Below, in pieces: positions 59,245-64,000 of a stretch of 64,000 bases of DNA. How positions within the stretch are numbered: position 1 is the first letter of the stretch; each line of letters begins with the position of its first letter. The stretch lies in the NCBI GenBank assembly GCA_030697175.1, contig JAUYQR010000008.1, positions 1 through 64,000 of the forward strand, given 5' to 3'. The notes below the pieces were generated by a model that was given only the letters and a program-made list of their open reading frames with translations, did no database searches and had not been told where the DNA came from. Both the position numbers and the translations under genes were made by a program. The DNA is from Paracoccaceae bacterium (GTDB taxonomy: Bacteria > Pseudomonadota > Alphaproteobacteria > Rhodobacterales > Rhodobacteraceae).

Positions 59245-60492
59245 ATGCAGCGTTATTCGGTCTTTGCCATCGCCCGTGAGGCAGTGCGCTATCACATGGG
59301 CTGGGAGCGGGCCTGGGCCTCGCCCCAGCCGAAAGCATCCTACGACGCGATCATCGTGGGCGCCGGGGGCCACGGCCTCGCCACCGCCTATTACCTCGGC
59401 AAGAATTTCGGCATCACCAATGTCGCGGTGATCGAAAAGGGCTGGCTTGGCGGCGGCAACACCGGCCGCAACACCACGATCATCCGGTCGAACTACCTGC
59501 AAGACCCCTCCGCCGCGATCTACGAAAAGGCGCGGTCCTTGTATGAAACCCTCAGCCAGGAACTGAACTACAACGTCATGTTCAGCCCCCGTGGCCTGCT
59601 GATGCTGGGCCAGACCCACCACGAGGTGCGCGGCTACCTGCGCACGGTCCACGCCAACACCCTGCAAGGCGTGCAGACCGAATGGATCAGCCCCCAGCGC
59701 GTCAAGGAACTGGTGCCGATCATCAACATCGACGGCCCGCGCTACCCGATCCTCGGCGCCCTGTATCAGGCCCGCGGTGGCACCGCCCGCCACGACGCCG
59801 TCGCCTGGGGCTATGCCCGCGCCTGTTCGGCGATGGGGATGCACATCATCCAGAACTGCGAGGTCAAGGGCGTGCGGTCGGAAAACGGCCAGGTCACCGG
59901 CATCGACACCACGCGCGGGTTCATCGGCTGCAAGAAGCTGGGCATGGTCGTCGCCGGCCACTCCGGCCAACTCGCCGAAATGGCGGGTTTCCGCCTGCCG
60001 ATCGAGGCGGTGGCGCTGCAGGCCCTCGTGTCTGAGCCGATCAAGCCCTGCATGGACGTGGTGGTGATGGCCAACACCGTCCACGGCTACATGTCGCAGT
60101 CCGACAAGGGCGAGATGGTGATCGGCGGCGGCACCGACGGCTTCAACAACTACACCCAGCGCGGCAGTTTCCACCACATCGAGGAAACCCTGCGCGCCCT
60201 GGTCGAAACCTTCCCGATGATCAGCCGTCTCAAGATGTTGCGCCAGTGGGGCGGCATCGTCGACATGACCGGCGACCGCTCGCCCCTGATCTCCAAAACC
60301 CCGCTTGGCAACTGCTTCATCAACTGCGGCTGGGGCACCGGCGGGTTCAAGGCGATCCCCGGCTCGGGCTGGGCGATGGCCGAGCTGATGGCCAAGGGCG
60401 AGCCGGGACCGCTGGCCGAAGACTTCAGCATGTGGCGCTTCAAGGACGGCCAGTTCATCGACGAATCCGTCGCCGCGGGGGTGGCGCATTGA
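59245..60492 (+). CDS. soxB: Sarcosine oxidase beta subunit
   Basis: A 415-residue flavoprotein: IIVGAGGHGLATAYYLGKNF (FAD-binding), GWLGGGNTGRNTTIIRSNY, GGTARHDAVAWGYARAC with His183 at the position that covalently carries FMN in heterotetrameric enzymes, and the C-terminal INCGWGTGGFKAIPGSGW. It oxidises sarcosine to glycine, with 5,10-methylene-tetrahydrofolate and H2O2 formed by the SoxA subunit. The C-terminal tail GPLAEDFSMWRFKDGQFIDE is repeated in the degenerate chimera at 60950-61126. First gene of the operon. Confidence 0.95.
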   Translation: MQRYSVFAIAREAVRYHMGWERAWASPQPKASYDAIIVGAGGHGLATAYYLGKNFGITNVAVIEKGWLGGGNTGRNTTIIRSNYLQDPSAAIYEKARSLYETLSQELNYNVMFSPRGLLMLGQTHHEVRGYLRTVHANTLQGVQTEWISPQRVKELVPIINIDGPRYPILGALYQARGGTARHDAVAWGYARACSAMGMHIIQNCEVKGVRSENGQVTGIDTTRGFIGCKKLGMVVAGHSGQLAEMAGFRLPIEAVALQALVSEPIKPCMDVVVMANTVHGYMSQSDKGEMVIGGGTDGFNNYTQRGSFHHIEETLRALVETFPMISRLKMLRQWGGIVDMTGDRSPLISKTPLGNCFINCGWGTGGFKAIPGSGWAMAELMAKGEPGPLAEDFSMWRFKDGQFIDESVAAGVAH

Positions 60493-60565
60493 TGAACGCC
60501 ATCGGGAACCATAAGCCGGACCGCGACGTTCCCTCTGCAGCCTCATCCCTGCAGGAGACATTCAA

Positions 60566-60874
60566 ATGTCCGACCAACGCCAATCCACCCCGCCGCAATC
60601 CGGTGAAAAATCCAATGGTGCCATCATCTTCATCGTCGGAGGTCTTGTCGTCGCCGTGGCTGTGCTGGGCTATGTCTTCACCGACGGGTTCGGCGGCGGC
60701 TCCATGCCCGGTGCGACATCTGATGCTCCAGCCATCAGCATTGAAAACAATGCCACGGCCCCCGCAGCTGCCCCGGCCCCGGCAGAACCCGCGCCTGCCC
60801 CGGCTGAGACCGCACCCGCTGCCCCCGCACCCGCTGCCCCCGAACCGGCACCGGCCGCACCAGCCAACCCCTGA
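60566..60874 (+). CDS. Single-helix protein with Pro/Ala-rich tail (in sox operon)
   Basis: A 102-residue protein: cytosolic N-terminus MSDQRQSTPPQSGEKSNG, one transmembrane helix (AIIFIVGGLVVAVAVLGYVF), then a periplasmic tail of Ala-Pro-Glu repeats (APAPAEPAPAPAETAPAAPA). AGGAGA lies just upstream of the ATG, a good translation signal. It lies 73 bases after soxB. A second single-helix protein with a low-complexity tail lies at 61291; the two may be diverged copies from a duplication. Function unknown. Confidence 0.65.
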   Translation: MSDQRQSTPPQSGEKSNGAIIFIVGGLVVAVAVLGYVFTDGFGGGSMPGATSDAPAISIENNATAPAAAPAPAEPAPAPAETAPAAPAPAAPEPAPAAPANP

Positions 60875-60899
60875 GTCTGCCAGCCTTGAGATCACCGCC

Positions 60900-60930
60900 A
60901 ACGGCGGGCACCCCCGGGTGCCTGCCGTTT
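60900..60930 (+). terminator. 13-bp hairpin after the first single-helix gene
   Basis: AACGGCGGGCACC (60900-60912) pairs with GGTGCCTGCCGTT (60917-60929) with one wobble or mismatch, a 4-base loop and three T residues at the end. It starts 25 bases after the stop at 60874. An intrinsic terminator here would attenuate soxB transcripts before soxD and soxA. Confidence 0.55.
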
Positions 60931-60949
60931 CCATATGCGGAGACCGTAC

Positions 60950-61126
60950 ATGCTGACCCTCGAATGCCCCTATCGCGGCGTCGCCGCCGAGGAAACCGAA
61001 CTCTCCCCCGGCTACGAGGCGCATCTGAAACGCGTCGGCCCCCTGGCCGAGGCATTCAACATGTGGCGCTTCAAGGAAGGCCAGTTCATCGACGACTCCG
61101 ACGCAGCGGGGGGTTGTGCATTGATG
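60950..61126 (+). pseudogene. Chimeric remnant: soxD head fused to soxB tail
   Basis: From ATG 60950, MLTLECPYRGVAAEETELSP and GYEAHLKRVGP match the first 31 residues of the intact SoxD at 61645 (MLILTCPYCGIKADETELSP). From GPLAEAFNMWRFKEGQFIDD onward the sequence matches the last 27 residues of SoxB. The second zinc cysteine is Arg (CPYR instead of CPYC), and one extra base near the end of the SoxB part removes its stop, so reading would continue in a random frame. The junction lies at a shared GGNCC(C) stretch around 61037-61042. This is the expected scar of a tandem duplication and not a working gene. Confidence 0.85.
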
Positions 61127-61290
61127 GTGCAGATGCAGCAAAGGTCATGCGACCTGACGGCCCCGACACGGCGGCATTTCGGCCATGGCGCTGCCGGGGC
61201 AGCAATTCCTTGCCAGGAGCGGTTGAACCGGCAAGTGGCAACGTCCACTTCCGAAGGGTGGGTTTCTCCACAGGCGATGGAGTTCGATGA

Positions 61291-61563
61291 ATGGCACTTG
61301 AAAACGGAAGCCGCAAATGGGTCGTTGGCGGCGGCATTGCGGCCGCAGCAGCGGCAGCGGTCGTGGGCGGATGGTTCCTGTTCGGCGCGGGTGGCGCGCC
61401 CGTGGCCACTGAAGACGCTGCAGAGACCGCTGCCCCCGAAGAAGACGCGGAAGACGACGCGGAAGTCGGGGCCGAAGCCGAGACCGAAGCCGAGGATGCA
61501 CCCGACGCCGACGCCGGAGCCGAGCCTGAGGCTGAGGCTGAGGCTGAGGCTGAGGCCGACTGA
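61291..61563 (+). CDS. Single-helix protein with acidic Glu/Ala-rich tail (in sox operon)
   Basis: A 90-residue protein: short basic N-terminus MALENGSRKW, one hydrophobic helix (VVGGGIAAAAAAAVVGGWFLF), then an acidic tail of Glu-Ala/Asp-Ala repeats ending AEAEAEAEAD. GGAG lies eight bases before the ATG. It occupies the same place relative to the downstream soxD as the protein at 60566 does to the chimera, which fits duplication and divergence. The low-complexity tail is unstable DNA (GAGGCT repeats). Expression is uncertain. Confidence 0.55.
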   Translation: MALENGSRKWVVGGGIAAAAAAAVVGGWFLFGAGGAPVATEDAAETAAPEEDAEDDAEVGAEAETEAEDAPDADAGAEPEAEAEAEAEAD

Positions 61564-61644
61564 GTCCGACACCAGGGCGCGGGGTCTCGGGGGCAGGCGC
61601 CACGGCTGCGCGCTTGCCCTCCTCATTCTGTCCGGAGCCCCAAG

Positions 61645-61968
61645 ATGCTGATCCTGACCTGTCCCTATTGCGGCATCAAAGCCGACGAAACCGAGCTTAG
61701 CCCCGGCTACGAGGCGCATCTCAAGCGTTTCGGGCCCGATGCCTCGCCCGAGGAATTCGAGGCCTACATGTTCGCCCGCAAGAACCCCAAGGGCGTGCAT
61801 TTCGAACGCTGGCGCCACGCCTACGGCTGCGGCAAATGGTTTCTGGCCGCCCGCTGCACCGCCACGCTCGAGGTGTTCGGCACCTACCCCGCACAGGTGG
61901 GCGAACCGCCCGCAGACATCATCGACAAGATCAAGGCTCGCCGGCCTGACTGGAAGGGTTACAAATGA
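61645..61968 (+). CDS. soxD: Sarcosine oxidase delta subunit
   Basis: A complete 107-residue small subunit. The zinc-binding ligands are the N-terminal CPYCG pair (Cys6, Cys9) and the HAYGCGKWF segment (His59, Cys63). EFEAYMFARKNPKG and HFERWRHAYGCG are family-typical. It bridges SoxB and SoxA in the heterotetramer. Its stop overlaps the soxA start (ATGA). It is the intact counterpart of the truncated copy at 60950. Confidence 0.94.
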   Translation: MLILTCPYCGIKADETELSPGYEAHLKRFGPDASPEEFEAYMFARKNPKGVHFERWRHAYGCGKWFLAARCTATLEVFGTYPAQVGEPPADIIDKIKARRPDWKGYK

Positions 61969-64000
61969 GCACGCGTCTGGCAAAGGGCGGCCGTCTGATC
62001 GACCGGACCGCCGCGATGGATTTCCACTTCAACGGCAAGGTGATGCGCGGCTTTGCCGGTGACACGCTGGCGGCGGCACTTCTGGCCAACGACCAGATGC
62101 TGATGGGCCGCAGCTTCAAATACCACCGCCCGCGCGGTGTCGTCGGCTCCGGTCCCGAAGAACCGAACGCGCTCGTCAACCTCGGGCGCGGCGCACGGCT
62201 GGAACCGAACCAGCGCGCCACCACGACCGAGCTTTTCGATGGGTTGGAAGCCACCAGCCAGAACCACTGGCCCAGCCTCGAATTCGACGTGGGCGTGGTG
62301 AACAACTACGCCGCCCGCTTCATGCCGGCAGGCTTTTACTACAAGACCTTCATCCACCCGCGTCCGTTCTGGAAACACGTGTTCGAACCGGTCATCCGCC
62401 GCGCAGCGGGCCTCGGCAAGGCACCGACCGAAGGCGACGCCGACCGCTACGAACAGGCCTACGCCTTCTGCGACGTGCTGGTTGTCGGTGGTGGCGTGGC
62501 CGGCCTTCTGGCCGCGAAAGCTGCCGCCGACGCGGGCCAGCGCGTCATCCTTCTGGAACAGACCGCCACCCTCGGCGGCCGCACCCCGGTCGACGAGGCC
62601 GATATCGACGGCACCCCTGTCGACACCTGGATCGCGGCCATCGAATCCGATCTGCGCGCCCGTGACAACGTCACGATCCGCACCCGCACCTGCGGGTTCG
62701 GCGTCTATGACCACGGCTATGTGCTGGCCGACGAGCGCGTTGCCGACCACACCCCCGGCGACGGTCGCCCGAAGCACCGGCTGTGGCGCATCCGCACAGC
62801 CAAGATCGTCACCGCCACCGGCGCCATTGAACGCCCGCTGTCCTTCGCAGGCAACGACATTCCCGGCGTCATGCTGGCCTCCGCCGTGCGCGACTATGTC
62901 GTGAACCACGCCGTTTCGCCCGGTGACCGCACCGTGATCGCCACCAACAACGACAGCGCCTACCAGACGGCGCTCGCGCTCAAGGCCGCCGGGCTCGAAG
63001 TCCCCGCCATCCTCGACGCCCGCGACACCGCGACCGGCGCCTTGCCCGAGGCCGCCCGCGCCGCCGGCATCCGCGTCCTCACCGGGCGCGGCATCGCCAA
63101 GGTCAAGGGCGGCAAGCGCGTCACCGGCGTCGCCGTCTGCACCCAGGCAGGCGAAGGTGCCGTGCTTGAGGAAATCACCTGCGAAGCCGTCGCCATGTCG
63201 GGCGGCTGGTCGCCCGTTGTCCACCTGTTCAGCCATTGCGGTGGCAAGGTGAAGTGGGATGACAACCTGTCCGCCTTCATCCCCGACGCCTCTCGCCCGC
63301 CCGTCAACCACGACGGCAGCCCGATGGTTTCGGTCGTCGGCGCGGCTGCGGGTTGCCTGTCGCTCGCCAATATCCTCGCCGGATTGCGCGATGTGTCTGG
63401 CAAGACTGCCATACGTTTGCCAGACGTTTGCCAGACGCCGGATGGCAGCGTCTCGATCCCCCCGGTCTGGGTCATGCCGCAGGGCGCGCCGATCCAGTTG
63501 CGCTCCAAGATGTGGCTCGATTACCAGAACGACGTGAAGGTTTCCGATGTCCAACTGGCCTCGCGCGAAGGCTATCAAAGCGTCGAACACACCAAACGCT
63601 ACACGACTTTGGGGATGGCCACGGATCAGGGAAAACTAAGCAACATCAACGGACTCGCCGTCCTTGCTGATAGTTTGAATGAACCTATCCCGCAGGTCGG
63701 CACCACCACCTTCCGTCCGCCCTACACACCCGTCACCATCGGCGCCTTGGCAGGCGAGTCGCGGGGCGAGATCTTCCAGCCGCTCCGCCGCACCCCGATG
63801 CACGAATGGCATGAAAAGTCAGGCGCTTACTTCGAACCCGTAGGCCTCTGGCACCGCCCCTACTGCTTCCCCCGGGCAGGGGAAACCCACGAACAGGCGG
63901 TCCACCGCGAGGTGCTGAACACCCGCGAAAAGCTGGGCCTTCTGGACGCCTCCACCCTTGGCAAGATCATCGTCAAAGGCCCCGACGCCGGCCGCTTCCT
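61965..64000 (+). CDS. soxA: Sarcosine oxidase alpha subunit (runs off the right edge)
   Basis: 678 codons are visible of a family member of about 960-1000. Present: N-terminal 2Fe-2S-like domain (FAGDTLAAALLANDQMLMGR; FKYHRPRGVVGSGPEEPNAL), the NAD-binding domain (VLVVGGGVAGLLAAKAAADAG), the TATGAIERPLSFAGNDIPGV segment, EHTKRYTTLGMATDQGK and the start of the aminomethyltransferase-like part (TTTFRPPYTPVTIGALAG; MHEWHEKSGAYFEPVGLWHR). The C-terminal tetrahydrofolate-binding part is outside the window. An 11-bp tandem repeat (ACGTTTGCCAG at 63413-63423 and 63424-63434) sits in a variable linker, and the frame stays open. Confidence 0.94.
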   Translation, partial: MSTRLAKGGRLIDRTAAMDFHFNGKVMRGFAGDTLAAALLANDQMLMGRSFKYHRPRGVVGSGPEEPNALVNLGRGARLEPNQRATTTELFDGLEATSQNHWPSLEFDVGVVNNYAARFMPAGFYYKTFIHPRPFWKHVFEPVIRRAAGLGKAPTEGDADRYEQAYAFCDVLVVGGGVAGLLAAKAAADAGQRVILLEQTATLGGRTPVDEADIDGTPVDTWIAAIESDLRARDNVTIRTRTCGFGVYDHGYVLADERVADHTPGDGRPKHRLWRIRTAKIVTATGAIERPLSFAGNDIPGVMLASAVRDYVVNHAVSPGDRTVIATNNDSAYQTALALKAAGLEVPAILDARDTATGALPEAARAAGIRVLTGRGIAKVKGGKRVTGVAVCTQAGEGAVLEEITCEAVAMSGGWSPVVHLFSHCGGKVKWDDNLSAFIPDASRPPVNHDGSPMVSVVGAAAGCLSLANILAGLRDVSGKTAIRLPDVCQTPDGSVSIPPVWVMPQGAPIQLRSKMWLDYQNDVKVSDVQLASREGYQSVEHTKRYTTLGMATDQGKLSNINGLAVLADSLNEPIPQVGTTTFRPPYTPVTIGALAGESRGEIFQPLRRTPMHEWHEKSGAYFEPVGLWHRPYCFPRAGETHEQAVHREVLNTREKLGLLDASTLGKIIVKGPDAGRF

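Follow-up and report, generated by a model that had tools for sequence, protein, structure and literature searches.

The region considered here lies at the end of a 64,000-nucleotide stretch of a Paracoccaceae bacterium draft genome in 24 contigs (positions 1 to 64,000 of contig JAUYQR010000008.1, assembly GCA_030697175.1; this whole stretch is hereafter the window). It contains an operon for heterotetrameric sarcosine oxidase (soxBDAG), in which DAO and SoxD domains were found and soxB, soxD, soxA and soxG are adjacent (Table 1). The two open reading frames (ORFs) 3' of soxD, with short overlaps, are presumed from their position to be soxA and soxG, and their order is the same in the named loci measured. 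The SoxB protein shares 97-98% identity with several relatives (e.g., L069, L053, L050; L-numbers denote the loci compared, taken with the flanking DNA of the sox region). Between soxB and soxD lie, in this order, a small gene X, a chimeric fragment of the two enzyme genes (60938-61126) and a second small gene X'. An earlier note on this DNA read this arrangement as a tandem duplication of a soxB-X-soxD unit, with X and X' as sister copies.

Table 1. Features of the sarcosine oxidase region in window coordinates
Feature	Position	Strand	Basis or remark
soxB (sarcosine oxidase beta subunit), intact, 415 aa	59245..60492	+	Pfam DAO 1.1e-65
X, 102-aa single-helix protein with Ala/Pro/Glu-rich tail	60566..60874	+	alignment with L062 and L054 spacers
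Inverted repeat between X and scar, GC-rich	60900..60929	.	self-complementary blastn match, 86.7%
Scar, left half: soxD head, ATG at 60950, 31 codons, Cys9 to Arg	60938..61042	+	76.2% to 61633-61737
Joint, CGGCCCC	61036..61042	+	occurrence in relatives, tallied by eye
Scar, right half: soxB tail, one-base insertion, old stop out of frame	61037..61126	+	85.6% to 60406-60494
X', 90-aa single-helix protein with acidic tail	61291..61563	+	weak matches in L022 and L059
soxD (sarcosine oxidase delta subunit), intact	61645..61968	+	Pfam SoxD 1.1e-25
soxA	61965..64000, on to 64955 in contig	+	ORF 61965-64955, 996 aa; 4-bp overlap with soxD

The chimeric fragment is a decayed recombination scar in which the head of soxD is joined to the tail of soxB. 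When 60871-61300 was compared by blastn with the whole window, the left half matched the start of soxD (E 1.7e-16), from 12 nt 5' of the ATG to codon 31, and the right half matched the end of soxB (E 1.5e-23); the local scores of 88 and 113, respectively, compare with maxima of 25 and 26 in 1000 shuffles each. Used as a query against its own genome, the 177-bp chimera returned at E <= 0.001 only the scar itself, the soxB end and the soxD start. The fusion proposed in the earlier note, which had made its case depend on the significance of these two similarities, is hence borne out, albeit with a soxB part of 28 codons plus the stop region instead of 27 codons. The short GC stretch that it placed at the joint is likewise present. 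The same heptamer occurs at the corresponding position in the soxD of 12 of 17 relatives and in the soxB of 2 of 17 (by eye); as the extent of homology shared with the true donor, it is a candidate only. Both signs of decay that the note had named, namely a Cys-to-Arg change (CPYCG to CPYRG) and a frameshift at the old soxB stop, were recovered. The two cysteines of the CPxC motif, which we take to be zinc ligands, both align with the solved delta subunit 2gag_D in one alignment, and the scar is without one of the pair. Further, 9 of the 14 differences between the soxD head of the chimera and the clade consensus fall at third codon positions, which, in this small sample, fits most of the divergence having accumulated in a still working soxD. 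The scar itself is a decayed by-product. With regard to the inverted repeat that precedes it, the translated spacers of several relatives suggest, as judged without alignment, a similar element 5' of soxD.

The genes on the two sides of the scar show no detectable similarity to each other, either as DNA (best local score of 28 over 14 nt for the units outside the scar, against a shuffle maximum of 34) or as protein (blastp, E = 15), and in the flanks of the scar similarity ends 2 nt beyond the stop codon of soxB and 12 nt 5' of the soxD start. The view of X and X' as sister copies is therefore not supported; what stands of the tandem duplication is a decayed recombination scar, but not the doubling of one unit, since neither X and X' nor the flanks match. 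X, on the other hand, aligns across genera: together with the spacer that follows, it is 67% identical to the L062 spacer over 398 nt and 66% identical to that of L054 over 402 nt. In L062 and the window alike, the alignment stops 6 nt 5' of a soxD start, which in the window is that of the scar, and the sequence before the soxD head of the scar is collinear with that before soxD in L062 and L054. Given this collinearity from X up to the soxD start of the scar, the left unit, with the soxD head of the scar, resembles a normal soxB-X-soxD array, whereas the right unit is of a different kind. Such arrays without the chimera, which the note had suggested seeking in relatives, are present in L062, L054, L015, L118 and L123. 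The first 55 residues of X match 21 of 123 other spacers (E <= 0.01), and no second match to X was obtained in its own genome at the same threshold. The core of X' weakly matches the gene directly 5' of soxD in L022 (43% over 44 aa, E 7e-6). A plasmid DNA search gave 25 records; among the 20 matches listed, similarity is confined to the part of X' that codes for the acidic tail. Separately, the spacers of L031, L129, L140 and L143 each appear by eye to hold two X-type proteins without a counted soxB/soxD scar, suggesting that X-type genes also multiply or arrive leaving no scar.

The soxB-soxD spacer was surveyed in 204 loci, comprising the window, 80 named loci (the best 80 of 565 by soxD) and 123 from further genomes of the family, these being a part of the matches obtained there. 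Among these loci, fetched by soxD or the chimera, 198 have soxB and soxD in order (6 were dropped with one gene missing) and yield 183 distinct spacers, which range from 33 bp to 2103 bp and reach at least 150 bp in 117 cases. Spacers of at least 60 bp were compared on both strands with the soxD and soxB of the same locus (in some loci only the 3' part of soxB was available), and matches at E <= 1e-4 and at least 38 bits were counted as scars. Six of the 183 spacers carry one: those of the window, L016 (the same stretch as L036), L022 (the same genome as L045), L037, L100 and L126. All 8 counted matches are on the plus strand, with soxB pieces that reach the last base of the gene and soxD pieces that start at base 1 or 10, and, with flanking DNA included, they overrun the soxB stop by 0-5 nt and reach 0-16 nt 5' of the soxD start; no other part of soxB or soxD was found in the spacers at this threshold. 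A piece of one gene only is held by 4 of the 6, namely a soxB tail in L016 and L100 and a soxD head in L022 and L126. Weaker matches to soxB or soxD ends (E ~0.0004-0.01, some clearly due to chance) in L031, L032, L050, L064, L131, L136 and L143 were left uncounted. The same applies to L104, with a match of 24 nt, and to L101, in which 28 nt of the sequence preceding soxD are repeated.

Comparison of the scarred loci indicates that scars resembling their source closely can adjoin unrelated cargo. In L037 a complete soxD-head/soxB-tail chimera is found again, broken at different points (89.3% over 131 nt and 87.5% over 40 nt). In L036 a soxB tail of 97% identity lies between two mutually unlike genes and in L126 a soxD head of 94% identity is followed by a low-GC gene adjoining soxD. 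Self-comparison of the six loci gave, beyond the scars, matches of 14-24 nt only (E 0.017 or worse; window and L126). Scars of 97% and 94% beside unrelated cargo make a plain tandem duplication unlikely, because the cargo would then be equally alike. A state without and a state with a scar are seen in two congeners from the genus of L037: L216 and L217 have in common soxB, X and the spacer that follows (69.6% over 654 nt). L216 is without the scar, whereas L217, with X present once, has an extra ~680 nt 5' of soxD, in which a low-GC gene and 75 nt of soxB tail (78.7%) are contained. This seventh scar lies outside the 183 surveyed spacers. In L126, ~30 nt directly 5' of the displaced head of soxD resemble the sequence upstream of the native soxD in the congener L223, with no such match in the congeners L220 and L221 (L222 was not measurable). 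Among 5 genomes of its genus, a match to the L126 cargo was obtained solely in the genome of L126.

Variability of this kind is specific to the soxB-soxD junction. Among the measurable cases in the named loci, the distance exceeds 150 bp in 37 of 78 for soxB-soxD, as against 1 of 80 for soxD-soxA and 0 of 70 for soxA-soxG. The median soxD-soxA distance is -4 (80 loci); L067, with 184 bp, and L125, with 130 bp, depart from this 4-bp overlap. The cargo is varied, including X-type single-helix proteins, an FkbM-type methyltransferase (2.5e-8), a TfoX_N protein (3.7e-12) and several small membrane proteins, and 45 of the 117 spacers of at least 150 bp have no ORF in common with another locus of the set (spacer ORFs were taken from all three forward frames, so that cluster sizes are rough). 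Some cargo begins on the soxB stop codon and is lower in G+C than soxB. A Pfam scan of 10 of the spacer proteins, which make up a small fraction of the total, detected no recombinase or mobility domain; models of defence genes gave nothing convincing on 6 cargo proteins (best PADLOC E 0.02), and a scan for terminators gave 1 site where 1.2 would be expected. A search of 120 genomes for one membrane cargo family gave one match, and was insensitive, because genomes of the set with more distant cluster members went unreported. A gene of the FkbM type, assigned by Pfam in one case, lies 5' of soxD in 11 loci that are close relatives of the window's bacterium by SoxB (L047, L050, L053, L059, L064, L068-L070, L073, L077 and L078), and none was seen in the window spacer.

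The reading that we consider probable is that two alleles, soxB-X-soxD and soxB-X'-soxD, were joined ectopically at a short homology, in a site that resembles a minimal mobile element (MME). The soxB-soxD junction would be a tolerant site at which alternative small genes come and go via recombination in the conserved flanks. In an ancestor, an incoming soxB tail-X'-soxD would have met a resident soxB-X-soxD; one end would have been resolved by a homologous crossover in soxD (or soxB), and the other by an ectopic joint, in a short GC-rich stretch, between codon 31 of the resident soxD and a point ~28 codons upstream of the stop of the donor soxB. As a result, X' would have been gained and X kept, with the soxD-head/soxB-tail scar left behind to decay. 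The X unit would on this account be the resident one, and the donor DNA might have come by natural transformation or a gene transfer agent (GTA). The bacterial family is known for gene transfer agents, and two GTA_TIM matches and one ComEC-type match in the window's own genome make such a vehicle conceivable. The GTA_TIM matches, at C23:151990-152886 and C9:38331-39212 of G000, perhaps belong to two GTA-like clusters.

The affinities of the scar halves agree with two alleles to a limited extent. The soxD head of the chimera (93 nt) is 88.2% identical to L064 and 77.4% to the soxD of its own genome, which ranks 98 of 124. Over the 71 nt upstream of its indel, the soxB tail shares 93.0% identity with L053 but 85.9% with the soxB of its own genome, which ranks 16 of 124. 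A closer match of the halves to other loci would be expected of two alleles, although the evidence is limited. Constraining the chimera and the soxD head of its genome to be sisters costs the tree 28.1 log units, and in the soxB tail the chimera and its own soxB share zero states off the consensus. The first 93 nt of the window's own soxD have 81.4% mean identity to 15 relatives, compared with 87.2% for the rest. Several observations nevertheless count against a two-allele event. The approximately unbiased (AU) test leaves the sister relationship of the two soxD heads unrejected (p-AU 0.158; 93 columns), and they share 3 states off the consensus of a clade of 15 relatives, next to 10 sites at which only the window gene differs, 8 at which only the chimera differs and 3 at which all differ. 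The soxD head of L098 shows a drop equal to that of the window (-6.0 vs -5.8), because of which the low similarity of the head argues only weakly for import. A weak similarity links the core of X' with the X region of L059 (29% over 41 aa, E 0.007), so that a distant relationship between X and X' is conceivable; no soxB-X'-soxD allele that could have been the donor was found in the loci and genomes examined; and L036 sits on a low-coverage 3.3-kb contig of a metagenome-assembled genome (record L057) and could be misassembled. The tree test and the polarised site count did not assign the halves to alleles.

These same points bear on the alternatives. A simple tandem duplication of soxB tail-X-soxD head, after which one X diverged or was lost or exchanged, predicts exactly the observed order soxB-X-soxD head/soxB tail-X'-soxD, would start from an arrangement that exists in relatives, and could draw on the shared soxD-head states, the AU result and the L059 match. 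Yet it would have to accommodate an X that aligns across genera and fails to match X', scar flanks that are equally unmatched, the low rank of the own soxD for the chimera head and the sister scars of 94-97% with unrelated cargo; whole-length likeness of repeated units is absent, only the scar parts matching. For the window alone we regard such a duplication as unlikely, but, in view of the tree test and the L059 match, as an explanation of some standing.

A mobile cassette that integrated by a mechanism of its own, duplicating a long stretch of the target, would agree with the single-gene pieces in 4 of the 6 scars and with the low G+C of some cargo. However, it would not produce chimeras of two genes such as those in the window and in L037; the scars end near the ends of soxB and soxD, and the small part of the spacer proteins scanned (10) showed no recombinase domain, all of which leads us to think a cassette very improbable. 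That the structure is an artefact of assembly is harder still to credit: the window's genome is a draft and L036 comes from the thin contig noted above, but the copies in the window are only 76-86% identical, hence reads would hardly be confused, and similar scars exist in other assemblies, including those of Fertoeibacter niger (L100), on a 710-kb contig, and of L126 (G152), on an 834-kb contig.

Beyond the favoured allelic exchange, a broader and decidedly speculative proposal is that the soxB-soxD junction serves the whole family as a capture site for single small genes, which selection would maintain for functions of their own unrelated to sarcosine, with the scars recording their exchange. 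Were this true, a housekeeping operon would act as a dock for a diversifying gene pool, with roles, for instance, in the cell envelope or against phages. Separately, a locus without the operon, L212 (G035:C1, ~1098470-1098874), holds a single-helix ORF resembling X and a cargo gene of the membrane type (positions ~1168-1407 and ~1489-1917 of the locus), the latter ~62% identical to that of L132. By eye, its flanks are ruvX-like and superoxide dismutase-like genes, the likes of which also border the sox operon on the contig of the window. No match to soxB, soxD, soxA or soxG better than E 0.02 was found in L212, and its genome has no match to the chimera query.

Such ectopic joints are familiar from transformation and conjugation in the laboratory, and their occurrence in toxin loci has been proposed. 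Here a single ordinary operon junction keeps a readable record of additive recombination, showing the site of the joint, the material added and the extent of decay, and it can be searched in hundreds of genomes. The frequency and rules of these events thus become countable, and several uncharacterised cargo families are indicated. No report of this scar site was found in the open-access literature searched, in which few subscription papers were covered.

Among known systems, the closest parallel is the MME (Saunders and Snyder 2002, as defined in PMC3898611), which is said to be incorporated solely by homologous recombination. Comparable features of the present junction are the lack of a mobility gene among the 10 spacer proteins scanned and the conserved flanks, with both genes in order in 198 of the 204 surveyed loci. 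The cargo also differs between species and within one genus (L216/L217), which may correspond to the differing cassettes that an MME carries from strain to strain. In contrast to the MME, the exchange here extends between species and genera and occurs inside an enzyme operon, leaving ectopic scars of the flanking genes, such that 7 loci have an ectopic joint alongside unscarred loci that could be clean exchanges. A second parallel comes from the type VI secretion system effector-immunity arrays of Vibrio, attributed to homology-facilitated illegitimate recombination (PMC5361080). As there described, those arrays likewise involve successive additive insertion with one homologous flank, the older modules and a gene 3' end being shifted; their cargo, however, consists of effector and immunity genes, in place of the assorted small genes and the scars of both housekeeping genes seen here. 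Homology-facilitated illegitimate recombination itself (PMC3240628) similarly combines one homologous end with one illegitimate joint, though for the sox junction it is deduced from anatomy alone. The illegitimate joint would correspond to the meeting of soxD codon 31 with the soxB tail at the short GC-rich stretch, with other breakpoints in L037 and L126, and the homologous junction to the intact soxB and soxD on both sides, where the signal of a possible mosaic in the soxD head is weak.

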